A stretch of DNA of 64,000 nucleotides from Dyella sp. S184 (lineage in GTDB: Bacteria > Pseudomonadota > Gammaproteobacteria > Xanthomonadales > Rhodanobacteraceae). Numbering within the stretch: position 1 is the stretch's first letter; every line of letters starts with the position of its first letter. The stretch covers positions 556,514 through 620,513 of the forward strand of contig NZ_LMUE01000002.1 in assembly GCF_009766065.1 (NCBI RefSeq), written 5' to 3'. This document shows, in pieces, positions 1 to 16,685 of the stretch. The translations under genes and the position numbers were made by a program. The notes under the pieces were generated by a model. The model was not told the origin of the DNA. It saw only the letters and a list, made by a program, of their open reading frames with translations, and searched no databases.

Positions 1-831
1 CACCATGCTGTTGGTATCGGCGAAATAGTCGGAACGCATTCCGACGTAGGTCTTCCCTTCCACTACGGCACCCTGCTGCAGCTTGCCCAGCACCTGCACC
101 GCCTCGCGCTCCGCGCGCTCGCGATCCTGCGGCGTGCTGCGCAATACGTAATCGCCCATTACCCCATCGGGTTGCAACGGAAAGAACACGCTGGAATACA
201 TGCCCCCAGGACCGCTGTACTTGGGATCCTGTGCCAGTACATCGGCGACCACTCCTACAACCGTCCAGCCCGTGGCGTTGGTATACAAGGTCTTGCCCAG
301 CGCGCTCTGGTCTGGCCACAACCTGTTCGCATCGCTCTGCGTGACCAGCGCGACATGACCGGTGGAACTGAAGTTCTTGAAACCACTGCCTGCGTATTCA
401 TCCGCATTGAACCACCGACCTTGCAACAAGCGCAGCCCCATGGCCTGCTCGCCGTCGCTACCGATGAAATACACCGAGGTATTCACCGTGCTATTCGCAT
501 TCGGCTTGGCGACGAAGGGCGACAGTGATGGATTCTGGTCCAGCGGCATGCTGGTTGCCGCAGCTGCCGCCGTGACGCCGGCGATGCCGCGCAACGCTGC
601 AAGATTGCGTGGAATATCGCTAGCGGCGAGTTTCGGATCGGCCCCATTCACGGTGACCACCGAGATGCCTTGTTCGTCGATCGCATTCGACCAGTGGATG
701 CTGGCCACGCGCTGGCCGATCATGAAGACGGCATTGCAGAGCACTGCGCAGGCCAGTGCGATTTCCAGCACGATCAGAACGGCCGGGATGCGATGCTTGC
801 GCAGGCTGGCGAGTATCGGACGGATTTCCAT
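1..831 (-). CDS. MacB-type ABC permease, B1 subunit (C-terminus cut by window edge)
   Basis: An inner-membrane permease of the MacB/FtsX superfamily without its own ATPase domain. About 277 codons are visible from an ATG at 831, preceded by GGGGAG six bases upstream. The start MEIRPILASLRKHR and the helix LEIALACAVLCNAVF (about residues 18-36) match the other B genes of the array. The visible remainder is the large periplasmic domain. The three C-terminal helices and the coupling motif GVRRALGA lie beyond the window. It follows A1 by 11 bases and carries the LEIALAC signature of type II B subunits. Its substrate cannot be read from sequence. Confidence 0.88.
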   Translation of the reverse strand, partial: MEIRPILASLRKHRIPAVLIVLEIALACAVLCNAVFMIGQRVASIHWSNAIDEQGISVVTVNGADPKLAASDIPRNLAALRGIAGVTAAAAATSMPLDQNPSLSPFVAKPNANSTVNTSVYFIGSDGEQAMGLRLLQGRWFNADEYAGSGFKNFSSTGHVALVTQSDANRLWPDQSALGKTLYTNATGWTVVGVVADVLAQDPKYSGPGGMYSSVFFPLQPDGVMGDYVLRSTPQDRERAEREAVQVLGKLQQGAVVEGKTYVGMRSDYFADTNSMV

Positions 832-842
832 GATGACTCCCC

Positions 843-2153
843 TCAGGCGGCTTTCAGTTGCGGAGCAGGCGCGACTACGCAGGCCCGCCACGCGGGCAAC
901 AGGCCGGCGAGCAGGCTGGAAACCAGCGCGACCACGAACGTGAACAGGAACATCGACAGATCCAGATGCGCGAGGCTGGCGTATTGCGCCGGCTGGTGGC
1001 GGATGCCCCACAACCCCAGCTCGGCGAAACACAGACCCAGCACACCACCGGCGAGGCCGACGATGCCGGCCTCGACCATGAACTGCGCAAAGATCGCGCC
1101 GCGTGAGGCGCCCAGCGCACGGCGGACGCCGATCTCGCGCGAGCGGCGCAGGCACTTGGCCAACAGCAGGCCTACCGTATTCACCACGCAGATCAGCAGG
1201 AAGCCGAGTGCCAGGCCGGCCTGCAGGCGCACATCATCGGGCACCACCTGTTCATTGCGCAGCCATGACATGAGATCCCACAAGGCCACCCTGGACAGCT
1301 GGAACCGCCCCAGCGCAACCTGCTGCTGCGCGTAGTTGCCCAGGAACAGCTTGTAGGCCGGGGCCTCGTCGGCGCTGGACAACTGCACCCACAAGCCGAG
1401 CCAGATGCTTTGGGCAGTCTCCAGATGCTGCATGTCGGTATGCTCCGACCCGTACGACATGACCGTATTCGGCGTCATGCCATCGGCCCGCGCACCCTGC
1501 AAGGGCATGAATACCGCCTCGCCCTTGCCGTAATCGCGACCGCCTAGATGTACCGCGTAGAAACGCGGCTGTGGCGCCCAGGACCGCAGCACGCCGATGA
1601 TGCGGAAGTCGTGATCGTCGATGTGGATCGTACGCCCCACGCTGTTCGCGCCTCCGAACAGCTTGTCGTTGAGGAAACCCGCGATCACCACCACCTGTGC
1701 ACGGCTTTCGTCGTCCGAAGAAGCCCACCCTGCACCGTACTGGAATGGCGCGTCGAACATCGGAAAGAAGTCAGACGTGGTCAGCACCCCGTCGGCATAG
1801 AACGGTTTCCCGTCCTGCGCCTGCGGCGTCACCTTGACCTGCGACATCGCCATCACCGCCTGCCGCTCGGCCTTGCGGGCATGCAGCAGGTTCATCGCAT
1901 CGACGTAGCTCATGAGCCACGGCAACTTTTTCCCGCTGCGCGAGAAAGGCTGGTCCCTGGGATAGGGATCGAGCTGCGGATAGAACAACTGCGCACTCTT
2001 CTGCGGCAACGGATCACCCGACAGCAGCTTCAGCACGGTCAGCGTGGTGATCGTGGCGCCGATGCCCAGTGCCAGCGCGAGCACCATCAGGGTCGTCAGT
2101 ACCGGATTCCGCTTCAGGCTGCGCAATGCCAGATCGAGGTAGTAGCCAAACAT
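843..2153 (-). CDS. MacB-type ABC permease, A1 subunit
   Basis: MacB/FtsX-fold permease of 436 residues. I chose ATG 2153 (MFGYYLDLALRSL), which has GGAG seven bases upstream, over a longer reading from 2237. The layout is one N-terminal helix (about 20-42), a periplasmic domain, then three C-terminal helices. The cytoplasmic coupling motif GVRRALGASR lies near residue 345. Sequence after TM1 (GIGATITTLTV, SGDPLP) places it in type II with A2 and A4. Unlike the other intact A proteins it lacks the cysteine pair that ends in a CVW motif: the equivalent stretch reads SIWLGLW. It lies 144 bases after B2, the longest gap in the array. Confidence 0.9.
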   Translation of the reverse strand: MFGYYLDLALRSLKRNPVLTTLMVLALALGIGATITTLTVLKLLSGDPLPQKSAQLFYPQLDPYPRDQPFSRSGKKLPWLMSYVDAMNLLHARKAERQAVMAMSQVKVTPQAQDGKPFYADGVLTTSDFFPMFDAPFQYGAGWASSDDESRAQVVVIAGFLNDKLFGGANSVGRTIHIDDHDFRIIGVLRSWAPQPRFYAVHLGGRDYGKGEAVFMPLQGARADGMTPNTVMSYGSEHTDMQHLETAQSIWLGLWVQLSSADEAPAYKLFLGNYAQQQVALGRFQLSRVALWDLMSWLRNEQVVPDDVRLQAGLALGFLLICVVNTVGLLLAKCLRRSREIGVRRALGASRGAIFAQFMVEAGIVGLAGGVLGLCFAELGLWGIRHQPAQYASLAHLDLSMFLFTFVVALVSSLLAGLLPAWRACVVAPAPQLKAA

Positions 2154-2297
2154 GTTCAAGCTCCGATCATTGGATTGTGGGCAACGGACGAGCAACGAAG
2201 GTGCAAGCCTGAGCAGTTGTAGCAAAGCGCATCGCATCGCCTGTTCGACGGCATCGTTTTGGCACAGTCATTACTCATCTCTCGTTTCTCGCTCTCA

Positions 2298-3530
2298 TCA
2301 GACCGATCTAGTCGCCACTACCGGTGGCACCGCCGCCGCGCGCAGCGCCGGACCGAGTACAGCGATCTGCCCGATCAGCCACAGCAAAATGGCGCCCACC
2401 GGGAAATAGACGCCCGGAAGCCGCGGCAATTCGTAGTGGCTCATCAGGAACAGGTTGATGCCGTAGGCCAGCACCATGCCAAGCGCGATACCGAACGTGG
2501 CCAGCACGAAATTCTCGGTCTGGAAGTAGTGCAGGATGTTGCCGCGAGTGGCGCCCAGCGCACGGCGCACACCGATGGTGCGACGGCGCTGCGCCACCCA
2601 GAAGCTGGCCAGCCCGACGATGCCCAGCGCGGTGACGATCAGCAGCGCCGCGATCACGCCGACCAGCATGCCGGCCATCGCACGGTCGTCCTGGAAAAAC
2701 TTCCGGCGCACTTCGTCGAAACTGCGCTGGGTGGTCACCACAAGTTGCGGATCGGCCTTTTTCAGTGCGGCCAGTGCGGCGGCCATGACGCTCGCGCGAT
2801 CTTCCGGCCGGGTGCGGATCAGGTAGCTCTGGTCTTTGCTCGCCCCCATGCGCAGCGGCACGACCATGGTGTATTGCGCCTTGGCCTCGTCGTAGGCATT
2901 CGGTCGCACCAGGCTGTCCACCACGCCGACCACGCGCAGGCCAACGACGGGCGTGAGGTAGATGATGCGACCCAGCGGGTTCTGCCCCGGCCACAGCCGC
3001 TCGGCCAGGGTCTGGGTGATCAGGGTCACGTGCGGCAGGCTCTTGCTGTCGCCGTTGCCAAGCCCCTTCATCGCCGTCTCCACGTCGACGAAATCATCGG
3101 ACTGCAGGTCGCGCCCGGACACCAGCCGTGTACCCAGCGTCTGCACCAGGTTTTCGCCAAAGTAGGTGGTGGCGAAGAGTGTGCGCTCGGGCTGCGCCGG
3201 GTCGAGCCGGATATTGCCATTCGACGACGAGCTGCCGAACGGCACCTGGTTGGATGAGGCCACCGATAGCACGCCAGGCACTTGCCTGAGCACCGCCACA
3301 TCTTCCGCGAGGCGGGCATATGGATTGGATGGTGTCGTCACGTCGGCCACCTGGATTTGCAGCAGCTCGTGTTCGGCCACGCCACTGGGCATCTCCATGC
3401 GTTGCAGGCGCTGGCCGATCAGGAACACCGCGTTGCAGACGATGGCGCAGGTCAGCGCGATTTCCAGGATCAGCAGCCAGGACGTGAGCTTGTGCCGGCG
3501 CAGCGTGGAAAGGATCGGAAGAATGTCCAT
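2298..3530 (-). CDS. MacB-type ABC permease, B2 subunit
   Basis: MacB/FtsX-fold permease of 410 residues. ATG 3530 is preferred because GAGGTGAG sits just upstream; an in-frame GTG at 3536 is possible. TM1 contains LEIALTCAIVCNAVF (type II). A periplasmic MacB_PCD-like domain follows, then IGVRRALGATRGNILHYFQTEN at the coupling region and two further helices, ending VVATRSV. It starts 7 bases after the A2 stop, so A2 and B2 are probably translated together as a heterodimer. No ATPase motifs are present, so it should depend on the ATPase at 18144-18866. Confidence 0.9.
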   Translation of the reverse strand: MDILPILSTLRRHKLTSWLLILEIALTCAIVCNAVFLIGQRLQRMEMPSGVAEHELLQIQVADVTTPSNPYARLAEDVAVLRQVPGVLSVASSNQVPFGSSSSNGNIRLDPAQPERTLFATTYFGENLVQTLGTRLVSGRDLQSDDFVDVETAMKGLGNGDSKSLPHVTLITQTLAERLWPGQNPLGRIIYLTPVVGLRVVGVVDSLVRPNAYDEAKAQYTMVVPLRMGASKDQSYLIRTRPEDRASVMAAALAALKKADPQLVVTTQRSFDEVRRKFFQDDRAMAGMLVGVIAALLIVTALGIVGLASFWVAQRRRTIGVRRALGATRGNILHYFQTENFVLATFGIALGMVLAYGINLFLMSHYELPRLPGVYFPVGAILLWLIGQIAVLGPALRAAAVPPVVATRSV

Positions 3531-3537
3531 GCTCACC

Positions 3538-4845
3538 TCAATTGCTCTTCAGTTGCAGGGCGGGCGCGATCTGGCAGGCGCGCCAGGCGGGCAGCAGGCC
3601 GGCCAGCAGGGTGGCGCACACCGCCAGCACGAAGGTGGTGAACAGCATGCTCATGTCCAGGTGCGCCAGCGCGGCGTAATCCGAAGGCCGCTGCCGCACC
3701 AGCCACAGTCCGAACATCGCCAGCAGCAGGCCGCCGATGCCGCCGACCAGACCGACCACGCCGGATTCGATCAGCAGCTGCGCGAACAACGCGCGCCGCG
3801 ATGCACCCAGTGCACGGCGCACGCCCAACTCGGCCGAGCGGCGCATGAACTTGGCCAGCATCAACCCCACCGTATTGACCAGGCATACCAGCAGGAAGCC
3901 GAATGCCAATCCGTTCTGCAGGCGCACGTCGTCGGGTACCACCATCTGGTAGTCAAGCCACTGCATCACGTTGCGCAGGCGCACGTTGGGCGCGCGCTGG
4001 AAGCGGCCCAGCGTCTTCTGATCCTGCGAGTAGTGCACCAGAAACTCCTTGTATGCGGCTGCTTTCGCGGGGCTGTCCAGTTGCGCCCAGAACTGCAGCC
4101 ACACGCAGGAATCCGAAGGCAGGATGCTGCCGACGCCACCACCACCATTGCCCCAGCAATCGGTCGATCCGTTGCGATCCAGCCGCAGCTCCAGCATGGT
4201 CTGCAACGGCAGGAACACCTGCTCGCCATAGGCGTAGGAGCCGGTATTGAGATCATAGAAATGCGGATTCGGCTGCCAGCTGTCCAGCACGCCCACGACG
4301 CGGAAGGAGGTACCCGCCATGCGCAGCGTACGACCCACGCTATTCGCTCCGGCAAACAGCTTGTCGTTGAGCGATTTCGCAATCACCACCTCACGCGCCT
4401 TGGCCTCTCCATCCGCCTCGGTCCAGCCGCGACCATACAGAAACGGCGCGTCGAACATCGCGAAGAAATCCGCCGTGGTGTAACGCGCCTCCACGTAGAA
4501 CGGATCGAGCGAGGACTGCTCTGGCTGGAGCGGCACCGATCCGCCGCTCATCAAGGCCTGGTGATCCGCACGTCCGGCATGCAGCAGGTTCAGGCCATCG
4601 ATCAAGGTGACCTGATCCGGCGGCTCCTTGTTCGGCTGCATGCCCTTGATGTCTTGCGGATCGACCTGCGGGTAATACAGTTGCGCGCTTTTGCCGGGCA
4701 GCGGATCACCCGACAGCACGTGCAGCACGGTCAGCGTGGTCATGCTGGCGCCAATACCTAGTGCGATCGCCAGCACCATCAGGATGGTGAGCGCCTTGTT
4801 GCGCATGAGGCTGCGCAAGGCCAGATCAAGATAGTAGGCGAACAT
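3538..4845 (-). CDS. MacB-type ABC permease, A2 subunit
   Basis: A-type permease of 435 residues starting MFAYYLDLALRSL at ATG 4845; a TTG immediately before it is a weaker alternative. The type II signature GIGASMTTLTVLHVLSGDPLPGK follows TM1. The periplasmic domain contains two cysteines (in TDCWGN and DSCVW), conserved at like positions in most A subunits, which could form a disulfide. The coupling motif is LGVRRALGASR, and the protein ends LQLKSN. It is placed 47 bases after B3 and 7 before B2 in the direction of transcription. Confidence 0.9.
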   Translation of the reverse strand: MFAYYLDLALRSLMRNKALTILMVLAIALGIGASMTTLTVLHVLSGDPLPGKSAQLYYPQVDPQDIKGMQPNKEPPDQVTLIDGLNLLHAGRADHQALMSGGSVPLQPEQSSLDPFYVEARYTTADFFAMFDAPFLYGRGWTEADGEAKAREVVIAKSLNDKLFAGANSVGRTLRMAGTSFRVVGVLDSWQPNPHFYDLNTGSYAYGEQVFLPLQTMLELRLDRNGSTDCWGNGGGGVGSILPSDSCVWLQFWAQLDSPAKAAAYKEFLVHYSQDQKTLGRFQRAPNVRLRNVMQWLDYQMVVPDDVRLQNGLAFGFLLVCLVNTVGLMLAKFMRRSAELGVRRALGASRRALFAQLLIESGVVGLVGGIGGLLLAMFGLWLVRQRPSDYAALAHLDMSMLFTTFVLAVCATLLAGLLPAWRACQIAPALQLKSN

Positions 4846-4892
4846 CAATCAGTCGCTCCGTCACATGAGCCCCTTCCGGGGGCAAAAAAATG

Positions 4893-6140
4893 TCAAGCCG
4901 CGCGCGTCGCCACCACCGGCGGCACGTTGGAAGCACGTCGCGCCGGCACGAAGACCGCGGCCTGTCCGAGCGCCAGCATCGCCAGCACTGCCGCTGTCAT
5001 GTAGAACAGTGGAATGCGTGCCATCTCGTAGTGCGCCATCAGCCACAGGTTGAGCCCAACTGCGAGCAGCACACCAAGCACAACACCGATGCCGGCAATC
5101 ATCAGGTTCTCGATCTGGAAGTAATGCAGGATGTCGATGCGCCGCGCACCCAGCGCACGCCGTACGCCGATCTGCCGATGCCGCTGGCCGACCCAGAAAC
5201 TGGTCAACCCGACGATGCCTGCCGCGGTGACACCGAGCAGGATCAGGCAAACCGTACCCATCAGGATCGCCATGCCACGATCAGCGCGATAGGCCTTGGC
5301 GCGGATATCGGAGAACGACTGGATACCCCACGCATCGGGCATGATGCGCATCGGGTTGACCGCAAGCAGTGCCTTGCGTGCCTCGTGCATCACCGCCTGC
5401 TCTCGCCCCGGCCGCGTACGTATGGCGTAACTCGCGGACGTTCCATCCAGACGAACCGGCAACAACACCGAGTTGTAGGCAAACGGGTTGCCCCAGCTGG
5501 CCGTGGTTGGCGTCTGCAGCTGCTCGACGATGCCAACGATGGTCGAGGGCTTCTTTCCATCCAGATACACCGTCTTGCCGAGTGCATCGCCCTGCGGGAA
5601 GAGTTTGTCCGCCACCGGCTTGGCCACGATGATCACCGGCGAGACATCAGTGCTGCGGATGGTGTGATGCAGGATATCGCCGGCGTTGAAATCGCGACCT
5701 GCAATCAGATGCAGGCCGAGTGTAGAGCGCAGGTGCTCGTCCCCGTAGTAGTAGGCGGACTGGGCAGTCAAACCCTTGTCCTCAGGCGACAGGGAGATGT
5801 CGCTGCTCCATATGATGCCCGACAACGGCAGGCTCTCTGAGGCCGCCACTTCCTTTACATCGGGCAGGCTGCGCAGTGTGTCCAGATCCGTGCGCTGCAA
5901 CGCATCGAGCTTTTCGATGGAGGCGGCATCGTCGCCACTGGGAGCACCCACCCACGCCTGCGAGATCTTGATCAGATTGCTTTCGTCGATCCCGGTCGGA
6001 CGATTCAAACGCTCGATGCGCTGGCCGATGATGAAGACCGCATTGCAGACGATCGCCAGGGTCAGTGCGATCTGCAACACGATCAGCGACACGCCGGCCT
6101 TGTGCCGTCGCAACGCTGCCAGGATGGGATGTACGGTCAT
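4893..6140 (-). CDS. MacB-type ABC permease, B3 subunit
   Basis: B-type permease of 415 residues, start MTVHPILAALRRHKAG with GAGG eight bases upstream. TM1 carries the type I signature LQIALTLAIVCNAVF, followed by GQRIERLNRPTGIDE, which is nearly shared with B6 and B7. The periplasmic domain precedes IGVRRALGARRIDILHYFQ and two C-terminal helices; the protein ends VVATRAA. It begins 10 bases after A3, its probable partner. B3, B6 and B7 are visibly closer to one another than to B1, B2 and B4, implying duplication of whole A-B pairs. Confidence 0.9.
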   Translation of the reverse strand: MTVHPILAALRRHKAGVSLIVLQIALTLAIVCNAVFIIGQRIERLNRPTGIDESNLIKISQAWVGAPSGDDAASIEKLDALQRTDLDTLRSLPDVKEVAASESLPLSGIIWSSDISLSPEDKGLTAQSAYYYGDEHLRSTLGLHLIAGRDFNAGDILHHTIRSTDVSPVIIVAKPVADKLFPQGDALGKTVYLDGKKPSTIVGIVEQLQTPTTASWGNPFAYNSVLLPVRLDGTSASYAIRTRPGREQAVMHEARKALLAVNPMRIMPDAWGIQSFSDIRAKAYRADRGMAILMGTVCLILLGVTAAGIVGLTSFWVGQRHRQIGVRRALGARRIDILHYFQIENLMIAGIGVVLGVLLAVGLNLWLMAHYEMARIPLFYMTAAVLAMLALGQAAVFVPARRASNVPPVVATRAA

Positions 6141-6150
6141 GGCGCAATCC

Positions 6151-7473
6151 TCAATTCGATTTCAACTGCCACGCGGGCTGCACGCGCGAGGCACGAAAGG
6201 TGGGATAGATGCCGGCCAGCAAGGTGGCGACCACCGCTATCAGTACGGTGAGCAAAAGCAGAGCCGGATCGATCCGCGCCAGGCCGACAAGTCGTATGGG
6301 CAAGACCAGATCGACGCCGAGCACTCCCACGCCGGTCAGCAGCAGACCAAGCACGCCACCACCCACACCAATCACTCCAGCCTCAGTGAGAAACTGCGCA
6401 TAGATCGCGCTGCGCGATGCACCAAGCGCGCGGCGCACGCCAATCTCACCGCTGCGGCGCAGAAACTTGGCCAGCAACAGGCCCACCGTGTTCACCAGGC
6501 ATACGATCAGCAGGCCTAGTGCCACCAGCAGCGACACCTTGGTATCGCCTGGCACCACATGCATATGATCCAGATAGGCTGGCAGATTACGCAGGCGGTT
6601 GTTCGGCGACCAGGTGAAACGACCTGCCGCCTGCTGGTCGCGCGCATAGTCGTCGAGGTATTGCCGATAACGCTGCACGGCACCAGCACCATCCAGTTCG
6701 GCCATGAAGGCAATCCATACGCAATTCGAGTGCTGCAGGCCAACGAAGCCGGGTTCCGCGGGCGAATCACGGCATTCATTGACGCCACTGTTGGTCATGT
6801 TCACAGCAATCGCGCGCTGGAACGGCAGGAACACATCGGGGCCGTCGCTGCTGTAGCCACCGGTATCCATCACATCGTAAAAAATCGGCTGCGGATTCCA
6901 GTCCGCGAGGACGCCTGCCACCCGATAATCCTTGCCTTCGATATCGATCGTCCTGCCGACATTGTTGCCGCCACCGAAGACTTGCTGATTGAGCTTGTCG
7001 CTGATCACGGCAACCGCCGACTGATGCGCATCGTCGTCCGCACTCCAGCCGCTGCCGTATTGAAATGGCACATCCAGCATCGGGAAGAATTCGCCGTAGA
7101 CCCCATAGCCATTGGCCTGGACCGGACTGCGTCCCGCGCCTGCCGGAATCACCGACGGCGAAATCAGGTAGATCGCCGACTGCCGTGTGGCACGGTGGTC
7201 GCGCATCAGCGCCATCGCATCGGCGTAGTCCAGGGCATCCGGCGGCTCGCGATCGCCGCCGTGCTGCCCCGGACCCCACATATCGATCTGCGGCACGAAC
7301 AGCTTCGATGATTTCCACGGAATCGGATCGCCCGACACCGCGCGAAAGACCGAATACGTGGTCATCGACGCCGCCACGCCGAAGCCGATCGCCAGCACCA
7401 TCAGCGTGGTAAGGCCCGGACTGCGCTTCAGGCTGCGCATGGCAAGTTCAAGGTAGTAGCCGAACATATGCAT
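6151..7473 (-). CDS. MacB-type ABC permease, A3 subunit
   Basis: A-type permease of 440 residues. ATG 7473 (MHMFGYYLELAMRSL) is preferred because AGGAAG lies about seven bases upstream. Relatives start at the second methionine (7467), and the open frame extends further without support. Type I signature: GVAASMTTYSVFRAVSGDPIPWK and a VPQIDMWGP stretch almost identical to A7. The periplasmic domain holds cysteines in ECRDS and NCVW. The coupling motif is IGVRRALGASR, and the protein ends WQLKSN. It lies 80 bases after B4; that spacer contains a short 7-bp-stem hairpin (7521-7541). Confidence 0.9.
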   Translation of the reverse strand: MHMFGYYLELAMRSLKRSPGLTTLMVLAIGFGVAASMTTYSVFRAVSGDPIPWKSSKLFVPQIDMWGPGQHGGDREPPDALDYADAMALMRDHRATRQSAIYLISPSVIPAGAGRSPVQANGYGVYGEFFPMLDVPFQYGSGWSADDDAHQSAVAVISDKLNQQVFGGGNNVGRTIDIEGKDYRVAGVLADWNPQPIFYDVMDTGGYSSDGPDVFLPFQRAIAVNMTNSGVNECRDSPAEPGFVGLQHSNCVWIAFMAELDGAGAVQRYRQYLDDYARDQQAAGRFTWSPNNRLRNLPAYLDHMHVVPGDTKVSLLVALGLLIVCLVNTVGLLLAKFLRRSGEIGVRRALGASRSAIYAQFLTEAGVIGVGGGVLGLLLTGVGVLGVDLVLPIRLVGLARIDPALLLLTVLIAVVATLLAGIYPTFRASRVQPAWQLKSN

Positions 7474-7553
7474 CCGTGATCTTCCTCGCCCCTGCAAACA
7501 GGAAGTCTCCTTCCCGCAACCCTCCCCCTTCACCGGGGAGGAAATCAAAAACA

Positions 7554-8768
7554 TCAAACCGACCGCGTCGCCACCACCGGCGACACCGCCGCCGCACGCA
7601 ACGCGGGTCCGAGTACCGCCAGCTGACCCAGCCCCCACAGCACCACTGAGCCGATAGGCAGGTAGACCAGTGGCAGGCGGGGCAACTCATAGAACTTCAT
7701 CAGCACCATGTTCAACACGAACGCGAGCACCATGCCCAGCACGATGCCGAAGGTGACGATCAGGAAGTTCTCGGTCTGGAAGTAATGCAGGATGTCGCCA
7801 CGGGTGGCGCCAATCGCGCGACGGATGCCGATCTGCTTGCGTCGCTGTGCGACCCAGAAGCTGACCAGGCCGACGATGCCAAGTGCAGTAACCAGCAACA
7901 AAGCGATGATCACCCCCACCAGCATGCCAACCATGGCACGATCCTGGCGAAAGCTGTCTGTGCGCAGATCGCCGAAGGTCTTGCTGCCCTCCTCGTCGAA
8001 CACGGCATCCGGGGCGATCTTCGCAATGGTGGCGCGGGCATCGCGCAATACGCGGGATATGTCCTGCGGATCAGCGCGCAATAGATAACTGCCAGCCAGG
8101 AATTTGCCGGGGAGTGCCGGTACGAAGATCGACCAATCCTTGCTGTCTCCCTGCCAGTTGGAAGGGTCTGGCCTGACCAGATGGTCGATGACGCCGACCA
8201 CGCGGTAATGCCACTTGTCCAGCCAGAAGTCCTTGCCCAGTGGATCGGTGCCCGCCCACAGATGCTCGGCGAGTGAACGAGTGATCTGCACAGAGGCATC
8301 GGTTGGCATGAGGCCTTCGAAGGTTCGGAAATCATCCGGCTGAGGGCCACGGCCCGACGTCACGTGCAGGCCCAAGGCCTGCATGCTGCCCGGGCCGCCG
8401 ACATAGAACTCGACCACCCCGCCAAAATGCTGGCCCGCCATATCCAGCGTGATGCCCGCGGTACCCCGGCGAGCGCCAAAGGGTATGGAGTTGAGCACGC
8501 TGACCGACTGCATGCCGGGAATACTGCGCAGGCCAGTCAGCACACGCGCATTCAGATCGACCGCGTGACTGTCCTCGTAACCGGTCAACTGCACCGTTGC
8601 CAGTGCGCTTTCGTCCACGCCGCTCACAACGTGCAGCAGTGCAACCCTGTTGGCAATCAGGAAGCAGGCGTTGCATAGCACCGCACAGGCGAGCGCGATT
8701 TCCAGCGCAATCAGCATGGTGGCCAGGCGATGGCGACGCAGCGCGGCAAGAATGGGTTGAATTTGCAT
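7554..8768 (-). CDS. MacB-type ABC permease, B4 subunit
   Basis: B-type permease of 404 residues. Start MQIQPILAALRRHRLAT has GGGAG upstream. TM1 signature LEIALACAVLCNACF is type II. The periplasmic domain is followed by IGIRRAIGATRGDILHYFQTEN at the coupling site and two helices, ending VVATRSV. It begins 12 bases after A4, also type II, consistent with A4-B4 being one duplicated cassette. As in all array members there is no Walker A or B motif, so it needs an ATPase supplied in trans. Confidence 0.9.
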   Translation of the reverse strand: MQIQPILAALRRHRLATMLIALEIALACAVLCNACFLIANRVALLHVVSGVDESALATVQLTGYEDSHAVDLNARVLTGLRSIPGMQSVSVLNSIPFGARRGTAGITLDMAGQHFGGVVEFYVGGPGSMQALGLHVTSGRGPQPDDFRTFEGLMPTDASVQITRSLAEHLWAGTDPLGKDFWLDKWHYRVVGVIDHLVRPDPSNWQGDSKDWSIFVPALPGKFLAGSYLLRADPQDISRVLRDARATIAKIAPDAVFDEEGSKTFGDLRTDSFRQDRAMVGMLVGVIIALLLVTALGIVGLVSFWVAQRRKQIGIRRAIGATRGDILHYFQTENFLIVTFGIVLGMVLAFVLNMVLMKFYELPRLPLVYLPIGSVVLWGLGQLAVLGPALRAAAVSPVVATRSV

Positions 8769-8780
8769 GCTCGTACTCCC

Positions 8781-10106
8781 TTACAGCGTCTTTAACTGCA
8801 GCGCTGGCGCGATGCGACTCGCCCGCAGAGCCGGCAGTGCACCGGCCAACAGGCTGACCATGATTGCCAGCACGAACGTGGTGAAGAACATCGACGCATC
8901 CAGATACGCCATATCCGCATACACGGTGGGTTGCCGCCGTACCAGCCACAGCCCGATCAGCGTGAGTAACCACCCACCGATACCGCCGAGCAGGCCGATC
9001 AGGCCTGCTTCGACCAGACATTGAGCGAATACCGCCCTGCGGCTGGCGCCCAGCGCCCGACGCACACCAATCTCACCGCTGCGACGAAGAAATTTCGCCA
9101 GCAACAGGCCGACCGTGTTGAACAAACAGATGGCCAGAAAAGCGAATGCCAACCAGGTTTGCAGGTGCACATCACTGGGCACGACATGGTTGAGGTCCAG
9201 CCATTGCATCAGCGAGCGCAGCCGGGTGTTATCTGCATGGGTGATGCGGCCTAGTGCCTTCTGCTGTGCGGCATAACCCGCCAGGAAACTGCGGTAGTCA
9301 GCCACCTTCGCGGCGCTACCCAGTTCAACCCACAGTCTGATCCATACGCACGGCGCATTCTGCAGATGCCCAGGCGTGTCAGGCATATGCCAGCAGGTGA
9401 ATTGCCAGAAGTTGCCATCGTTGATCTCAAGGCCGCTGGTGAAGGGCGTAAACACATCCTCCGGCTTGGTATAGAAATCGTCCGTCTGGCCGTTTGCAAA
9501 GCGTCCGCCCGCCACCATGTAGAACTGCGGCGAGGGGCGCCATGGCTTCAGTACGCCGACGATACGCACGTCGGTATCGCGCAGGCGCAGCGCGCGTCCC
9601 ACACTATTCGTACCACCGAACAATTTGTTGTTGAGATCGGCCGAGATCACGGCCACTCGCGCGTGCTTCTCGTCGTCATCCGCGCTCCAGCCACTGCCGT
9701 ACTGAAATGGCACGTCGAACATCGGGAAGAAATCCGATGTGGTGGAAAGCATCATCTCCATCAGCGACGGCAAGTTCACTTCTGGCGCCTGCACCTTGAG
9801 CTTGCTATCCACGATCAGTGCCTGCCGATCCGCGCGGTGCGCACTCCATAGATCCACTGCCGAGCGATAGTCCATCACGTCCAATGGATCGGTGTGGCTG
9901 TAATCGTTGGTCGGATCCGCATCCACCTGTGGATAGAACAACGTACCGCTCTTGCCTGGCAGCGGGTCACCAGACAGCAGATGCATCACCGTCAGCGTGG
10001 TCATGCTGGCGCCGATGCCAACCGCGATGGCAAGCACCATCAGTGCCGTAAGCACCTTGTTACGCCGGAGGCTGCGCAGGGCCAGATCCATGTAATAGCC
10101 AAACAT
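8781..10106 (-). CDS. MacB-type ABC permease, A4 subunit
   Basis: A-type permease of 441 residues, MFGYYMDLALRSLRRNK, with GGGGGAAC before the ATG. It carries the type II signature GIGASMTTLTVMHLLSGDPLPGK. The periplasmic cysteines lie in FTCWH and PCVW. The coupling motif is IGVRRALGASRRAVFAQ; the end is LQLKTL. The four-helix MacB topology is clear: one helix, a domain of roughly 250 residues, three helices. It lies 33 bases after B5 and 12 before B4, within the co-directional run. Confidence 0.9.
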   Translation of the reverse strand: MFGYYMDLALRSLRRNKVLTALMVLAIAVGIGASMTTLTVMHLLSGDPLPGKSGTLFYPQVDADPTNDYSHTDPLDVMDYRSAVDLWSAHRADRQALIVDSKLKVQAPEVNLPSLMEMMLSTTSDFFPMFDVPFQYGSGWSADDDEKHARVAVISADLNNKLFGGTNSVGRALRLRDTDVRIVGVLKPWRPSPQFYMVAGGRFANGQTDDFYTKPEDVFTPFTSGLEINDGNFWQFTCWHMPDTPGHLQNAPCVWIRLWVELGSAAKVADYRSFLAGYAAQQKALGRITHADNTRLRSLMQWLDLNHVVPSDVHLQTWLAFAFLAICLFNTVGLLLAKFLRRSGEIGVRRALGASRRAVFAQCLVEAGLIGLLGGIGGWLLTLIGLWLVRRQPTVYADMAYLDASMFFTTFVLAIMVSLLAGALPALRASRIAPALQLKTL

Positions 10107-10139
10107 CGGTGTTCCCCCAGGTTTTACAGAATGAATGGA

Positions 10140-11372
10140 TCAAACCGAGCGTGTGGCTTCCACCGGTGATACGCGCGATGCGCGCATCGCTGGCGTCAGC
10201 ACCGACGCCTGGCCGAGCAGCAACAGCACGATGACGCCAATCACCACATAGCCCAGCGACAGCCGTGCCATCTCGAACTGGGTGACCATCCACAGATTGA
10301 TGCCGATCGCCAGAACCGTGCCGATGACGACGCCGATGCAGCCGATCAGCAGGTTCTCGGTGAGGAAATAGCTGAGGATGTCGCGCCGAGTCGCACCCAG
10401 TGCACGGCGGATGCCGATCTGCTTGCGCCGCTGGCCGACCCAGAAACTGGTGAGGCCAACAATGCCGGCCGCGGTGATCGCCAGCAGCACGATGCTGATG
10501 ATGCCCATCAGGATTGCCATGCCGCGATCGCTGTCATAGGCACGTTCGCGTACCTGGGCGAAGCTCAGCTCACCGTCTTTGGGATCGATAATACGCATGC
10601 GATTTTGCGCGTACAGCGCCGTGGGCACCTCGCGCATGGCGGCTGCAAGCTGGCCCGGCTTGGCACGCACGATGTAATACAAACCGTGCGGGTCGGCCAG
10701 GCGCATCGGCCACAACAGCGACTGGTAGGCATACGTCGTATCCCATGTCGAAACACCCTGCCGCTGCAACAGGTCGACAATGCCGATGATGGTGCTCGGT
10801 GCCGGACTCATCGCGTAGAGCGGCTTGCCCAGCGCCGATCCATCCGGATACAGCCGCTCGGCCAGTGCCTTGGTCACGATCACCGCAGGTGGAAAAACGT
10901 CCTCGCGCAAGCCGATCCGGCCGACCTCGTCGGCGCGGAAATTGCGTCCTGCCACCAGCTTCACGCCGAGCGTGTCGATCATATGTTCGTCGCCCAGATA
11001 AACCGACCCATCGGTGGTCGGCTGGACCTGCTCGGGCATCAACGTGATGAAGTTGTCCCAGCCGCCACCACGCAGTGGGTAGGAGTTGCTGGGCGAGGCA
11101 TCGCGCACGGCAGGCAACTGTCGCATCGCGGCCAGATCGGCCTGGATCTGCGCATCGATCTGCGGCGTCGACGACTGGGCTGCCCATTGGTTGCGGATCA
11201 CGAACAGGTTGGCTTCGTCGATGCCGGTCGGCTCGGAAAGATGGGCCATACGCTGCTGGATGATGAAAAGTGCGTTGCAGACGATCGCCAGGGTCAAGGC
11301 GATCTGCAGGGCGATCAGCACAGTGCCCGCCCGGTGGTGGCGCATGGCGGCAAGTATCGGTTTGATCTGCAT
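10140..11372 (-). CDS. MacB-type ABC permease, B5 subunit
   Basis: B-type permease of 410 residues, MQIKPILAAMRHHRAGT. TM1 LQIALTLAIVCNALF places it in type I, although its periplasmic domain has diverged furthest from the other type I B proteins. The coupling motif is IGIRRALGATRRDILSYFLTEN, and the end is VEATRSV. It begins 27 bases after A5 (also type I). The ribosome-binding site is weak, so translation may be coupled to A5. Substrate unknown. Confidence 0.9.
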   Translation of the reverse strand: MQIKPILAAMRHHRAGTVLIALQIALTLAIVCNALFIIQQRMAHLSEPTGIDEANLFVIRNQWAAQSSTPQIDAQIQADLAAMRQLPAVRDASPSNSYPLRGGGWDNFITLMPEQVQPTTDGSVYLGDEHMIDTLGVKLVAGRNFRADEVGRIGLREDVFPPAVIVTKALAERLYPDGSALGKPLYAMSPAPSTIIGIVDLLQRQGVSTWDTTYAYQSLLWPMRLADPHGLYYIVRAKPGQLAAAMREVPTALYAQNRMRIIDPKDGELSFAQVRERAYDSDRGMAILMGIISIVLLAITAAGIVGLTSFWVGQRRKQIGIRRALGATRRDILSYFLTENLLIGCIGVVIGTVLAIGINLWMVTQFEMARLSLGYVVIGVIVLLLLGQASVLTPAMRASRVSPVEATRSV

Positions 11373-11399
11373 GATCAGGGCCTGCCCAGTGTCTTCATA

Positions 11400-12710
11400 T
11401 CAGTTCGACTTCAGCTGCCAGGCTGGCTGCACCTGCGCGGCGCGCCAGGCGGGATAGAACGCCGCCGCCACGGTGGCGAGAATGGCAACCACCAAGGTCA
11501 GCCCCACCAGCGAAAGATCCAGATGCGCCAGGCGCGCGATCTCCGGCGTGAACAACAGGCCGGTGCCTGAGATACCTACGGCCGTAAGCAACAAACCCAG
11601 CACGCCGCCGGCCACGCCGACCGTGGCCGCTTCCATCAGATATTGCTTGTAGATCTCACGGCGCGATGCGCCCAGGGCGCGGCGTACGCCGATCTCCGCC
11701 GCACGGCGCATGAACTTGGCCAGCAACAGGCCGATCGTGTTGATCAGGCAGATCGCGAAAAAGCCCAGCGACACCAATAGCGAGATGCGGCTCTCCGATG
11801 GCACCACGTGCTGGAAATCGAGCCACTGCATCACATTGCGCAGACGCACGTTGGGTGGCCAGGCAAAACGTCCGGCCCGTTGCTGATCTGCGGCATAGCC
11901 TTCAAGAAACTGGCGGTAGCGTGCAACCTCCGACGCACTGTCCAGCTCCACCCACGGCGTGACCCATACACAGTTGCTGCGCAACCAGTCGTCCCAGCCG
12001 GTAGCAGTCAATTTTCCACGGCAGCTGTTGTTGCCTGCGGTATCGATCTGCAGATCCAGCGCACGCGTGAACGGTACATAGAAATCCGCGGGATCTTCGA
12101 AACCACTGCTGCCGAACAGCGCGAAAAAGCGTGGTTTGGGATCCCAATGCCGGGTTACACCGACGATGCGGTAGTCATGCCCGTCCAGGGTGATCTCACG
12201 CCCCACGCTGTTGGCACCGCCGAACAGCTTCTGGTTGAACTCCTCGCTCAGCACCGCGATCGCGGTGCGACCTTCGTCATCTGCCGTGCTCCAGCCGGAG
12301 CCGTATTGGAACGGCACCTCGAACATTGGGAAGAAATCGCCAGAGACCGCATAGCCGTTCACGGCGATCGGCAGGCTGCGGCTGCCACCAGGCAACACCG
12401 AGAGTTGCACCGGATACAGCAAGGTCTGCTGCATGGCCTGGTGTGCGTGCATCAAGGCGATTGCATCGGTATAACTAAGCGCGCTGGGTGGTTCACCCTT
12501 TTCGTTTTGTTGCGGACCCCAGTTATCGATCTGCGGCGTGTAGAGCTGCGCCGCCTTGTCCGGTATCGGATTGCCCGACACCGCACGGAATACCGACCAG
12601 GTCGTCATCGACGCGGCCACGCCCAGACCGATCGACATGACCATCAGCACGGTCAACGCCGGATTGCGGCGCAGGCTGCGAAGGCCAAGGGTCAGGTAGT
12701 AGACGAACAT
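11400..12710 (-). CDS. MacB-type ABC permease, A5 subunit
   Basis: A-type permease of 436 residues, MFVYYLTLGLRSLRRNP. It has the type I signature GVAASMTTWSVFRAVSGNPIPDK. Cysteines in NSCRGK and NCVW occupy the conserved periplasmic positions. The coupling motif is IGVRRALGASRREIYKQ, and the end is WQLKSN. It lies 32 bases after B6 and 27 before B5. The pair A5-B5 is type I but lies next to the type II pair A4-B4, so pair types are interleaved along the array rather than clustered. Confidence 0.9.
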   Translation of the reverse strand: MFVYYLTLGLRSLRRNPALTVLMVMSIGLGVAASMTTWSVFRAVSGNPIPDKAAQLYTPQIDNWGPQQNEKGEPPSALSYTDAIALMHAHQAMQQTLLYPVQLSVLPGGSRSLPIAVNGYAVSGDFFPMFEVPFQYGSGWSTADDEGRTAIAVLSEEFNQKLFGGANSVGREITLDGHDYRIVGVTRHWDPKPRFFALFGSSGFEDPADFYVPFTRALDLQIDTAGNNSCRGKLTATGWDDWLRSNCVWVTPWVELDSASEVARYRQFLEGYAADQQRAGRFAWPPNVRLRNVMQWLDFQHVVPSESRISLLVSLGFFAICLINTIGLLLAKFMRRAAEIGVRRALGASRREIYKQYLMEAATVGVAGGVLGLLLTAVGISGTGLLFTPEIARLAHLDLSLVGLTLVVAILATVAAAFYPAWRAAQVQPAWQLKSN

Positions 12711-12742
12711 CGATCAATCGCTCCCGGGCTATGTGTCAAGAA

Positions 12743-13993
12743 TCAGGCTGCACGTGTCGCCGTCACCGGCGGTACGTTGGACGCACGCCGCGCCGGCACG
12801 TACACCGCGGCCTGCCCCAATGCCAGCACCGCCAGCACGCCGACCAGCACATAGATCACCGGCATGCGGTCCATCTCGAAGCGGGTGATCAGCCACAGGT
12901 TGAGCCCGACTGCCAGCAAGATGCCGACCACAGCGCCGATGCCGGCAATCAGCAGGTTCTCAAGCTGGAAGTAATGCAGAATGTCGATCTTGCGGGCGCC
13001 CAATGCGCGCCGCACACCGATCTGCCGTTGCCGCTGACCGACCCAGAAGCTGGTCAGGCCGACGATGCCGGCGGCAGTGATGCTGAGCAGAATCAGGCAG
13101 ACCACACTCATCAGTATCGCCATCCCCAGATCGGCTCGATAGGCATCGGCACGAATATCCGTGAAAGAGCGCACGCCATGCTCTTCATCGATCACACGCA
13201 TGGGATTGACCGCATACAGCGCGGGCCCTACGGCGCGCATCGCAGCATCCAGTCGCCCTGGTTTTGCGCGCACCACGGTGCGCGAGAAATTCGCATCCTG
13301 CCGAACCGGGAACAGGGCCGAATACCAGGTGAGGCTGCTACCTTCCGTATCGACCGCGCTCTGCAGTCGCGCGACCACGCCGACTATGGTGGTCGGCGTG
13401 CTGCTGCTGTCGAGATAGATCACCTTGCCTACGGCGTTGCCCTGCGGGAACAGCTTGTCTGCGATCGGCTTGGTGATGATCGCAAGCACCGGCTCACTCT
13501 CGTCGCGCATTGGCTTGTGCTGGACATCGGCGGCGGTAAATGCACGGCCCGCGATCAGCTGCAAGCCCAGGGTCGACAGCGCCTGCTCGTCGCCATAGTA
13601 GAAATTCGAGTCGATCGTGCTCTTTTGCTGCAAGGGCTTCAGCCCGATCCCTCCGACCGAGCCGGAATGAAGCAATGGCAGCGATCGGATCGGCGCCGCC
13701 GAAGCTACGTCCGGCAGGTTGCGCAAGGCGGCCAGATCCGCTTGCTGCATGCTGTCCAGCTTTTCCAGTCCGGCCGGATCATCTGCACTGGGCGCACCCA
13801 CCCAGTGTTGGGTGATCAGGAACAGGTCGTTCTCTTCGTGCATGCCGGTGGGCTGGTTCACTCGCTCGATGCGCTGGCCGATGATGAAGATCGCATTGCA
13901 GATGATCGCCAGGGTCAGCGCGATCTGAAGCGCAATCAACACCACGCCAGCCTTGTGTTTGCGCAAGGCCGCGATGATCGGATGCACGGTCAC
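12743..13993 (-). CDS. MacB-type ABC permease, B6 subunit (A partner missing)
   Basis: B-type permease of 416 residues beginning with a GTG codon (MTVHPIIAALRKHKAG) and very similar to B7 and B3. It has the type I TM1 LQIALTLAIICNAIF and ends VTATRAA. Alone among the B genes it is not directly preceded by an A gene. Instead a 14-codon reading frame starting MFGYYL, the first six codons of an A gene, overlaps its start (13990-14034). It could pair with the A protein of another cassette or form homodimers; that is inference. Confidence 0.9.
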   Translation of the reverse strand: MTVHPIIAALRKHKAGVVLIALQIALTLAIICNAIFIIGQRIERVNQPTGMHEENDLFLITQHWVGAPSADDPAGLEKLDSMQQADLAALRNLPDVASAAPIRSLPLLHSGSVGGIGLKPLQQKSTIDSNFYYGDEQALSTLGLQLIAGRAFTAADVQHKPMRDESEPVLAIITKPIADKLFPQGNAVGKVIYLDSSSTPTTIVGVVARLQSAVDTEGSSLTWYSALFPVRQDANFSRTVVRAKPGRLDAAMRAVGPALYAVNPMRVIDEEHGVRSFTDIRADAYRADLGMAILMSVVCLILLSITAAGIVGLTSFWVGQRQRQIGVRRALGARKIDILHYFQLENLLIAGIGAVVGILLAVGLNLWLITRFEMDRMPVIYVLVGVLAVLALGQAAVYVPARRASNVPPVTATRAA

Positions 13994-14034
13994 TCTGCGC
14001 TCCCTGGAGCCTTTTTAAGGTAATAGCCGAACAT
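13990..14034 (-). pseudogene. Remnant of a deleted A-type permease gene (A6)
   Basis: Read on the minus strand, this stretch encodes MFGYYL and then eight unrelated residues before TGA. MFGYYL is the exact start of the A-type permeases A1, A3 and A4, and the nucleotides match their start region. The TGA overlaps the GTG start of B6. It sits exactly where the array pattern calls for an A gene. The likeliest reading is an internal deletion that removed all but the first 18 bases of A6, leaving a short cistron that may still couple ribosomes onto B6. A purpose-built leader peptide is the alternative. Confidence 0.65.
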
Positions 14035-14098
14035 GCACCCATTACTCCTGCACATGAAACCCACTTTCGTCAGCGACAAAAGAGAGAAGGGAAAATCA

Positions 14099-15358
14099 TC
14101 AGGCCGATCGCGTCGCCACCACCGGCGGTACGTTGGAGGCCCGGCGTGCCGGTACGAACACCGCCGCCTGCCCGATTGCCAGCATCGCCAGCACGCCGAT
14201 CACCACGTACACCAGCGGGATGCGCGTCATCTCGTAATGTGTCATCAGCCACATGTTGAGGCCCACCGCCAGCAGCACGCCGAGCGCCACGCCCACGCCG
14301 GCAATCAGCAGGTTCTCGATCTGGAAGTAATGCAGGATGTCGATCTTGCGGGCACCCAACGCGCGACGTACGCCGATCTGTCGATGGCGCTGACCGACCC
14401 AGAAACTGGTAAGGCCGACGATGCCCGCCGCCGTGACGCACAGCAGGATCAGGCAGACCACGCCCATCAGGATCGCCATGCCAACGTCGGCGCGATAAGC
14501 GCTGGTACGGATATCGGCGAATGACTTGACGCTGTCATCGGCGTCCAGCACGCGCATCGGATTGACCGCATACAGCGCTGCGGGCACCGCACTCATCGCC
14601 GCATCGCGCCGACCCGGCTTGGCGCGCACCACATAGCGTGTGAAGTTCGAATCCAGCCGGGTCGGCACCAGGGTCGAGTACCAGGCAAAGTCATTACCCC
14701 AACTTCCGGTGCTTGGGGTCTGCAGGCGTGCAACCACGCCAATGATGGTGCTCGGCGCACTGCTGCCATCCGAATAGATCACCTTGCCTACCGCACTGCC
14801 CTGCGGAAACAGCTTGTCGGCAAGCGCCTGGCTCACGATGATGACTGGACGGTCGCGCTGATCGCGGGCGCCCTGGTGCTGCACGTCTGCGGCAGTAAAC
14901 GCACGTCCGGCGACCAGGTGCAAACCCAGCGTGGGAAGCACCTGATCGTCGGTGAAGTAATACGCCGTACGCGTACCGCTCTTGTCGCCCAGTTGCTGCC
15001 CGGGCTTGATCGACACCGAACCCGTCCACGAGGAATTGAGCAGAGGCACCGAATTGCTGGGCGCCACCGAGGCGACGTCAGGCAGGTTGCGCAGCGCAGC
15101 CAGATCTTCTTTCTGCATCACATCGAGTTTTTCCACGCCGGCCGGATCGTCCGAACTGGGCGCGCCCACCCATTGCTGGGTGACCAGGAACAGATCGTTC
15201 TCATCGAGGCCAGTGGGTCGGTTCACCCGCTCGACACGCTGGCCGATGATGAACACCGCATTGCAGACGATCGCCAGGGTCAGTGCGATCTGCAGCGAGA
15301 TCAGCACCACGCCGGCCTTGTGCTTGCGCAATGCCGCAAGAATGGGATGCAAGGTCAT
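14099..15358 (-). CDS. MacB-type ABC permease, B7 subunit
   Basis: B-type permease of 419 residues. ATG 15358 (MTLHPILAALRKHKAG) has GAGG upstream and matches its paralogs; the frame stays open further upstream inside A7 without support. TM1 is LQIALTLAIVCNAVF (type I). The large periplasmic domain runs to about residue 270, the coupling motif GVRRALGARK is near residue 329, and the end is VVATRSA. It is 10 bases after A7. The sequence is close to B6 through most of its length, suggesting a recent duplication of this cassette. Confidence 0.9.
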   Translation of the reverse strand: MTLHPILAALRKHKAGVVLISLQIALTLAIVCNAVFIIGQRVERVNRPTGLDENDLFLVTQQWVGAPSSDDPAGVEKLDVMQKEDLAALRNLPDVASVAPSNSVPLLNSSWTGSVSIKPGQQLGDKSGTRTAYYFTDDQVLPTLGLHLVAGRAFTAADVQHQGARDQRDRPVIIVSQALADKLFPQGSAVGKVIYSDGSSAPSTIIGVVARLQTPSTGSWGNDFAWYSTLVPTRLDSNFTRYVVRAKPGRRDAAMSAVPAALYAVNPMRVLDADDSVKSFADIRTSAYRADVGMAILMGVVCLILLCVTAAGIVGLTSFWVGQRHRQIGVRRALGARKIDILHYFQIENLLIAGVGVALGVLLAVGLNMWLMTHYEMTRIPLVYVVIGVLAMLAIGQAAVFVPARRASNVPPVVATRSA

Positions 15359-15368
15359 GATGCGATCC

Positions 15369-16685
15369 TCAGTTCGACTTGAGCTGCCATGCGGGCTGCA
15401 CGCGTGAAGCACGGAAGGTGGGATAGAGACCGGCCAGCGTCGTCGCGATGACGGACACCAGCAGGGTCAGCATGAGCAGCGAGAAGTTGACCCGCGCCAG
15501 CGCGGCGATGTCCTTTGGCAGCACCCAGCCCACGCTGGCCACGCCGACGCCGGTCAGCAGCAGGCCAAGCGCGCCCCCGGCTAGACCGATGATGCCGGCC
15601 TCGGTCAGGAACTGCGCATAGATCGCCAGGCGCGGCGCACCCAACGCGCGACGCACGCCGATCTCGCTACTGCGACGCAGGAATTTCGCCAGCAGCAGGC
15701 CTGCGGTATTGACCAGGCATGCGAGCAGCAGACCCAGCGCCACCAGCAGCGACACCTTGGTATCACTGGGTACGACATGCTGGTTGTCCAGCCACGCCGG
15801 CAGGTCACGCAGGCGATTGTTCGGCGCCCAGCCAAAGCGGCCGGATTGCTGCATGTCATGCGCATAGCCATCAATGTACTGCTTGTAAGCCGTTACCGCC
15901 GCCGCATCGTCCAGCTCGGCCATATAGGCGATCCACACGCAGTTGGAATGCTGCAGGCCGACAAAGCCCGACTCGGCAGGCACCGCATTGCAATTGGTAT
16001 TGCCATCGTTCGGCAAGCCCACCGCGATGGCCCGCTGGAACGGCAGGAACACATCCTCGACACCGGTGGAGAACCCACCGCTGTTGACCACATCGAAGAA
16101 ACGCGGCTGCGGATTCCAGTCGTTCAACACGCCAACTACGCGATAGTCCTTGCCTTCGACGTTGACCGTCTTGCCCACGCTGTTGCTGCCGCCGAATAGC
16201 TTCTGGTTGAGCTTGCTGCTGATCACCACCACCGCAGCGCGTTGCGTATCGTCGTCGGCACTCCAGCCACTGCCGTACAGGAACGGCACGTCCAGCATCG
16301 GGAAGAACTCGCTGTACACCGCGTGGCCACTAACGTTGATCGGATGCTTGCTGGCATCCGCCGGCACCACCGACGGGGAAATCTGATACATCGCCGACTG
16401 CAGCTTGGCGCGGTGATCACGCATCAGGGTGATCGCGTCGTTGTAATCCATCGCATCCGGCGGCTCGCCGTCGCTGCCGCGTCCGTTCGGCCCCCACATG
16501 TCGATCTGCGGCACGAACAGCTGCGACGACTTCCACGGGATCGGATCGCCCGACACCGCACGGAACACTGAATAGGTAGTCATCGACGCCGCCACGCCAA
16601 AGGCAATGGTCAGCACCATCAGTGCAGTCAGTCCGGGGCTGCGCTTCAGGCTGCGCAGAGCAAGTTCAAGATAGTAGGCAAACAT
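15369..16685 (-). CDS. MacB-type ABC permease, A7 subunit (first gene of the permease array)
   Basis: A-type permease of 438 residues, MFAYYLELALRSLKRSP, with GGAGG before the ATG. It has the type I signature GVAASMTTYSVFRAVSGDPIPWK. Cysteines in TNCNAV and NCVW lie in the periplasmic domain. The coupling motif GVRRALGAPR is near residue 343 and the end is WQLKSN. It is the first permease after the TolC-type gene (62-base gap), so A7-B7 with the adaptor, ATPase and channel would already make a complete MacAB-TolC-like pump. The following pairs look like added copies. Confidence 0.9.
   Translation of the reverse strand: MFAYYLELALRSLKRSPGLTALMVLTIAFGVAASMTTYSVFRAVSGDPIPWKSSQLFVPQIDMWGPNGRGSDGEPPDAMDYNDAITLMRDHRAKLQSAMYQISPSVVPADASKHPINVSGHAVYSEFFPMLDVPFLYGSGWSADDDTQRAAVVVISSKLNQKLFGGSNSVGKTVNVEGKDYRVVGVLNDWNPQPRFFDVVNSGGFSTGVEDVFLPFQRAIAVGLPNDGNTNCNAVPAESGFVGLQHSNCVWIAYMAELDDAAAVTAYKQYIDGYAHDMQQSGRFGWAPNNRLRDLPAWLDNQHVVPSDTKVSLLVALGLLLACLVNTAGLLLAKFLRRSSEIGVRRALGAPRLAIYAQFLTEAGIIGLAGGALGLLLTGVGVASVGWVLPKDIAALARVNFSLLMLTLLVSVIATTLAGLYPTFRASRVQPAWQLKSN

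Follow-up and report, generated by a model that had tools for sequence, protein, structure and literature searches.

A 64,000-nucleotide stretch of the Dyella sp. S184 genome (contig NZ_LMUE01000002.1, positions 556,514 to 620,513; hereafter the window) carries a long row of permease genes of two kinds, A and B, behind a single ATP-binding cassette (ABC) ATPase. How did such a row arise, and is each A tied to the B that follows it? The operon lies on the minus strand in the transcription order adaptor, ATPase, TolC-type channel, A7 B7 B6 A5 B5 A4 B4 A3 B3 A2 B2 A1 B1; it thus holds six A and seven B genes, and no gene encodes A6. The gaps between genes are short, suggesting a single transcript. 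We read the locus, with a probability of roughly 80%, as a MacB-family (type VII ABC) tripartite export operon: a single set of adaptor, ATPase and TolC genes is followed by bicistronic A-B cassettes of two old types (I and II) that were inherited as whole pairs, B6 being the survivor of one of them. The genes are as follows.

18934..20208, minus strand: periplasmic adaptor (HlyD/MacA type), first gene of the operon; Pfam HlyD_D23/HlyD_3 and NCBIfam RND_mfp above cut-off, DarC also matching
18144..18866, minus strand: ABC ATPase (MacB/LolD/DarD type); ABC_tran, with DarD the top NCBIfam model, below its cut-off
16748..18097, minus strand: TolC-type outer membrane channel (start set at MRVKLLPLL); TIGR01844 at 300 bits, above cut-off
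15369..16685, minus strand: A7, type I A permease; MacB_PCD and FtsX, ADOP positions 6-401
14099..15358, minus strand: B7, type I B permease; MacB_PCD and FtsX, ADOP positions 411-802
13990..14034, minus strand: A6 remnant, a 14-codon open reading frame (ORF), MFGYYLKKAPGSAE, resembling A gene starts, its stop overlapping the B6 start codon
12743..13993, minus strand: B6, orphan type I B permease, with no A gene between B7 and B6
11400..12710, minus strand: A5, type I A permease, by motifs
10140..11372, minus strand: B5, type I B permease, by motifs
8781..10106, minus strand: A4, type II A permease, by profile matches and motifs
7554..8768, minus strand: B4, type II B permease, by profile matches and motifs
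6151..7467, minus strand: A3, type I A permease, by motifs
4893..6140, minus strand: B3, type I B permease, by motifs
3538..4845, minus strand: A2, type II A permease, by motifs
2298..3530, minus strand: B2, type II B permease, by motifs
843..2153, minus strand: A1, type II A permease, by profile matches and motifs
about 1..831, minus strand: B1, type II B permease, incomplete; it extends past the window edge and is broken off by a 10-N assembly gap (L009, 9991-10000)

The family assignment of the permeases follows from profile searches. Of six A and B proteins tested, five scored above cut-off for both MacB_PCD and FtsX (Pfam); in the sixth, B4, the PCD fell below it (20.6 versus 27 bits). 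The layout is that of MacB, with the MacB_PCD periplasmic domain between the first transmembrane helix (TM1) and a C-terminal FtsX domain, and the hydrophobic segments fit TM1 and TM2-4. Against the profile of the fused ADOP permeases (TIGR03434), the tested A proteins aligned to positions 6-401 and the tested B proteins to positions 410-802; by this alignment, A is the counterpart of the first half of a fused ADOP-type permease and B that of the second. Solved relatives are MacB, LolF and LolC/E. All A proteins have one common coupling-helix motif and all B proteins have another. Adaptor, ATPase, permeases and outer membrane channel are encoded together, giving the gene set of a tripartite system.

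Joint inheritance of A and B

A search of bacterial genomes with A7 returned 78 loci, nearly all from Rhodanobacteraceae (Rhodanobacter, Dyella, Frateuria, Fulvimonas) and the rest from metagenome bins, some of which carry labels of other taxa. The closest matches to A7 were in Rhodanobacter sp. C03 (96% identical), C01 (95%) and C05 (94%). After one redundant locus was removed and the window's genome added, the set comprised 334 A-B pairs of neighbouring genes, of which 317 were full length. Arrays held five to nine A genes in the ten genomes counted. Besides the 334 A-B adjacencies there were 277 B-A, 4 B-B and 3 A-A, and the B-B junctions were confined to loci L020, L021 and L086 and to the window.

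Separate trees of the A and B proteins, proposed as a check in the original prediction, mirrored one another. Over the 317 full-length pairs, patristic distances in the two trees correlated with r = 0.91, compared with a maximum of 0.02 in 200 permutations, and the eight nearest neighbours in the A tree and in the B tree overlapped by 5.5 on average (0.2 when permuted). Branches of the two trees did not conflict at support of at least 0.99; at 0.90, 25 of 169 did. When halves of A and B were used as a yardstick, the N-terminal halves of A and B agreed at r = 0.93, equal to the agreement between the N- and C-terminal halves of A (0.93). By this measure A and B agree as closely as if they were parts of a single protein.

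The paralogs point the same way. Their identities run in parallel for A and B (0.75/0.70 between A3 and the 1497k pair, 0.73/0.66 between A3 and A7, and 0.71/0.59 between A1 and the 358k pair), and in a slot test against the window's genome the A and the B fell in the same slot in 36 of 37 confidently assigned pairs from close relatives. Slot order itself varies, with A7-A5 first in the window and in C03 and A5-A7 in C01 and C05. The 358 kb pair, which lies outside the array in the window's genome, sits within the array in L022 (94% identity). At third codon positions, the genome's paralogs show low identity (medians 0.42-0.44, with a ceiling of about 0.6), indicating that the duplications are old. 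We considered gene conversion among paralogs and rejected it: paralogs from the same genome showed no excess similarity over those from different genomes.

Overall, these data strongly support a reading in which A and B share one history and the pair is the unit that is passed on, changes position, leaves the array or disappears. The whole-pair duplication proposed in the original prediction is borne out by the mirrored trees, by pairs that stay intact while slots are reordered and by the remnant of an A gene retained before the orphan B6.

Two strains show peculiarities of their own. Rhodanobacter sp. C06 (L038 and L040; NZ_MUNP01000077.1) carries two head-to-head copies of the operon with identical profile scores, either an inverted duplication or an assembly artefact. 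In strain B04 (L023, 11003-11005), the A7 ortholog has an in-frame stop beside an intact B7, consistent with a pseudogene or a sequencing error.

The orphan B6 and partner change within type I

The short ORF that precedes B6 looks like the beginning of an A gene. The 33 nucleotides after its ATG agree with the starts of A genes at a mean of 19.7 positions, whereas 513 background ATG windows averaged 8.5 and reached at most 15.1. Equivalent ORFs precede the orphan B6 in strains C01 and C05 (L020 and L021), and the leader upstream of the remnant resembles the one before an A gene in L027 (local score 21, compared with a shuffle maximum of 15). The A-start remnant adjoining B6 in three strains indicates that a whole A6-B6 pair once existed and lost A6 by internal deletion. 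Alternatively, B6 could stem from a duplication of B7 alone, given that none of the genome's paralogs is closer to it than B7 (71%). With an in-frame remnant in all three strains that exceeds every background window, and a leader of A gene type before it, such an origin is highly improbable, and the remnant led us to reject it.

After the loss of A6, B6 has been kept under purifying selection. Its frame is open between strains at 92-93% identity, and its ratio of nonsynonymous to synonymous substitution rates (dN/dS, 0.14-0.16) is near that of B7 (0.10-0.13), which argues that B6 is still used. Most probably it partners a type I A, the adjacent A7.

A further rearrangement occurs in strain MP7CTX1 (L027), where a single B that groups with B6 (support 100) comes after the A7 ortholog. 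The first 99 residues of this B are B7-like at 7 of 7 informative sites, and the rest is mostly B6-like (10 versus 33; p = 0.0002), a pattern that fits a deletion fusing B7 and B6. Since the three orphan B6 proteins share later changes of their own, ancestral states could account for part of the chimeric signal. Whichever its origin, A7 in this strain adjoins a B with a B6-like periplasmic domain. The matching of A and B had been called strict; this holds between types and fails within type I, where A7 has the B7/B6 chimera in MP7CTX1 and B6 occurs without an A in three strains.

Could subunits, then, mix freely in the cell, with adjacency in the genome reflecting gene duplication and not which A meets which B? 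The coupling-helix motif common to all A, the one common to all B and the single encoded ATPase are compatible with free mixing, as are the purifying selection on a B6 that has lost its A and the mostly B6-like B after the A7 ortholog of L027. Long-term loss of single subunits is rare, however, as the four B-B junctions illustrate. This rarity suggests that neither member of a pair can usually be spared, and we regard free mixing as unlikely. Pair duplication had been predicted "rather than free mixing of subunits"; no mixing between types was found, but a partner change within type I was.

Permease types and subunit interfaces

All of the motifs by which the two types had been told apart are present in the translations. 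A7, A5 and A3 contain GVAASMTT and SG[DN]PIP, and A4, A2 and A1 contain GIGA[ST][MI]TT and SGDPLP; B7, B6, B5 and B3 have LQIALTLAI, and B4, B2 and B1 have LEIAL[AT]CA. Each A in the window precedes a B of its own type. The predicted order of pair types (I, I, I, II, I, II, II) is right in this respect but counts the orphan B6 as a pair, and the interval assigned to the array (843-16685) leaves out B1, which lies outside it and is cut by the assembly gap.

Type matching over the six pairs in the window would be expected by chance with p = 1/20, and wider data were therefore needed. None of the 317 full-length pairs from the relatives and the window's genome was cross-typed. The LQ/LE marker itself is imperfect: 16 of about 156 pairs with type II motifs in the relatives have Q, which rules it out as a strict marker of type. 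Within the helix of the LQ/LE marker, a Leu/Cys position distinguishes the two types in every pair but one, and the A of that pair is otherwise type I. Residues fixed by type also occur elsewhere, at Y421/L, S312/Q, W286/R and Y100/A in the A proteins and at A311/L and W63/G in the B proteins.

The types had been described as interleaved. This is true of the window and exceptional among its relatives, since all type I pairs come before all type II pairs in 60 of the 67 arrays that contain both (11.4 expected) and the window is one of the seven exceptions. In L027, the A3-B3 ortholog comes directly after A7, inside the type I block, and for this reason we infer that a whole pair probably moved, producing the interleaving in the window. 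The sequences show the two types to be old, diverged before the sampled relatives did.

What keeps the types apart? Joint inheritance in two blocks suffices as a cause, and incompatibility of cross-type heterodimers is possible. If cross-type heterodimers failed to assemble or to work, selection would separate the types, and interfaces would have coevolved within each type. Several observations fit this scenario. Cross-typed pairs are absent despite the junctions between type I and type II in 67 arrays. Type-diagnostic residues are weakly enriched in TM1/TM2 relative to TM3/TM4 (28 of 113 versus 14 of 107; p = 0.04, with approximate helix bounds set after looking), and TM1 and TM2 form the four-helix bundle of the MacB dimer (PMC5985334). 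In addition, the sole partner change lies within type I, and the chimera keeps a B7 N-terminus beside A7.

Other evidence speaks against coevolved interfaces. A single ancient split cannot show coevolution, and joint inheritance predicts the same pattern; mirrored trees add nothing in this respect because bicistronic duplication predicts them as well. In a mean-field residue coupling analysis of the 317 paired rows (about 220 effective sequences, giving low power), an intra-protein signal was recovered, with a helix-hairpin pattern in B. Between the proteins, this same low-powered analysis detected no enrichment at the expected interface, the top 100 couplings including 38 between the periplasmic domains (PCD-PCD) versus 43.9 expected; the mean inter-protein score was 0.86, compared with 0.77 in a null in which B was swapped between close relatives. 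The coevolved heterodimer interfaces of the original prediction are therefore not demonstrated, and we hold selection against cross-type heterodimers to be a tentative explanation, with the odds somewhat against it.

A proposed shared exporter base and its known relatives

Six further A-B pairs lie elsewhere in the window's genome (4.2 Mb), outside the array. Flanks of about 7-8 kb around these six pairs contain neither an ATPase, an adaptor nor a TolC homologous to those of the operon. The genome encodes one close ATPase and one close adaptor, the latter being the sole copy at E<=1e-10. This gene content suggests that one ATPase and one adaptor serve all A-B pairs. As for what does flank the dispersed pairs, inspection by eye at L097 (9911-11956), L099 (2033-6875) and L102 (5186-13373) picked out ORFs resembling an M56/BlaR1 peptidase, a DUF885-type peptidase with an NtrC-type regulator and kinase, and response regulators.

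From these elements the following mechanism can be proposed. Each A-B pair would fold as a MacB-type heterodimer, as suggested by the match of A and B to the halves of a fused permease and by the precedent of LolCE (PMC5985334). The heterodimer would dock on the common ATPase dimer and on the adaptor and TolC, and the docked exporter would push substrates out of the periplasm. Different cassettes may handle different substrates, given that the periplasmic domains are the most diverged parts, and B6 would now work with a type I A, most probably A7.

Certain results weigh against this picture and the history behind it. Agreement with the rest of the pair is lower for the C-terminal half of B (r = 0.73-0.83, versus 0.88-0.93 among the remaining parts), which may reflect low information or old recombination inside B. 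The case for a shared ATPase comes from gene content, and the genome has other ATPases, the next best being 47% identical to that of the operon. Finally, an AlphaFold model of A7 built from 6 sequences was poor (pLDDT 50).

A more far-reaching version would have one ATPase/adaptor/TolC base take about a dozen interchangeable heterodimeric cassettes, from the array and the dispersed pairs together, of two incompatible types, in fixed block order and with re-partnering within a type (A7 with B7 or B6). We think this rather improbable; if it were true, one operon would build many exporters differing in substrate, possibly including one with the plant-immunity function of dssA. That gene encodes an ABC permease within a 17-gene operon of Rhodanobacter R179, which requires it to suppress the root growth inhibition that flg22 triggers in Arabidopsis; its orthologues are described as largely conserved in Xanthomonadales (PMC11928319).

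Does the operon in the window correspond to the one containing dssA? This functional claim, which is compatible with our main reading of the locus, has in our estimate about an even chance of being correct. Three genes (adaptor, ATPase, TolC) and fourteen permease genes from seven pairs add up to 17, the size of the dssA operon (PMC11928319), and the array of strain C03 has exactly seven A genes behind adaptor, ATPase and TolC. The match is one of count and gene type: the main text of the paper gives no accession or gene list (PMC11928319), and arrays vary from five to nine A genes among ten genomes. For these two reasons dssA is a lead and not an identification. Were the lead correct, a root commensal would need the same array to quiet plant immunity, and one could ask which permease pair is responsible. 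More broadly, the arrays supply natural A-B pairs by the hundred, together with a case of A deletion and a B chimera, as material for finding which helices set heterodimer specificity.

Some features at the edges of the operon should be recorded. The truncated B1 is 91-93% identical to its orthologs in L020 and L021 over 252-268 amino acids. Beside it (L009, 8815-10000), two 10-N gaps, a globin-like fragment and an IS30-type transposase were seen by eye, and the B of the C14:358k pair (L012) is likewise cut by N. At the other end, divergent from the adaptor gene, an ORF at 20462-22384 (plus strand) resembles by eye a caspase/C13-type peptidase with a signal peptide. Further along, a flavin mononucleotide (FMN) riboswitch (RF00050, 78.3 bits) lies at 33801-33994 (minus strand).

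In the literature searched, we found no description of split, tandem MacB-type permease arrays with one common ATPase, and a search on ADOP gave only an unrelated taxonomic match. By family description, ADOP permeases are orphans, without an ATPase gene nearby. A resembles the first half of ADOP (TIGR03434) and B the second, and ADOP also occurs in tandem copies. In contrast to ADOP, the halves here are separate ORFs with a stop between A and B, the best joint A-B score in the genome is 361 bits compared with a curated cut-off of 622.3, and the array comes with an ATPase, an adaptor and a TolC of its own, although the six dispersed pairs do lack an ATPase. Fused ADOP-type permeases stand in tandem behind an adaptor and an ATPase at L103 and L105 (from the window's genus) and at L104 and L106 (from its order), suggesting that a broader operon plan exists, of which the split arrays are one form.

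Among characterized systems, MacAB-TolC, a type VII ABC exporter, shares MacB_PCD and FtsX, the adaptor and TolC with the array and offers the nearest solved structures. Unlike MacAB-TolC, the array has a separate ATPase, permeases predicted to be heterodimeric, and six to seven permease pairs per ATPase versus one. LolCDE likewise has a separate ATPase and two different permease subunits that form a heterodimer; in contrast to it, LolCDE-specific permease models match weakly here, an adaptor and TolC are present, and the permeases are arrayed. The darobactin exporter DarBCD also has a separate ATPase, and DarD is the top NCBIfam match of the operon's ATPase while DarC matches its adaptor, but the equivalog cut-offs were missed (258.7 versus 375 bits for DarD, 87.5 versus 450 for DarC) and the DarB model (777 positions) describes one long permease. 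LitOPAI of Legionella combines a MacB-like permease, a separate ATPase, an adaptor and an outer membrane channel (PMC11559062), as does the operon in the window, but with a single permease gene where the window has an array (PMC11559062).

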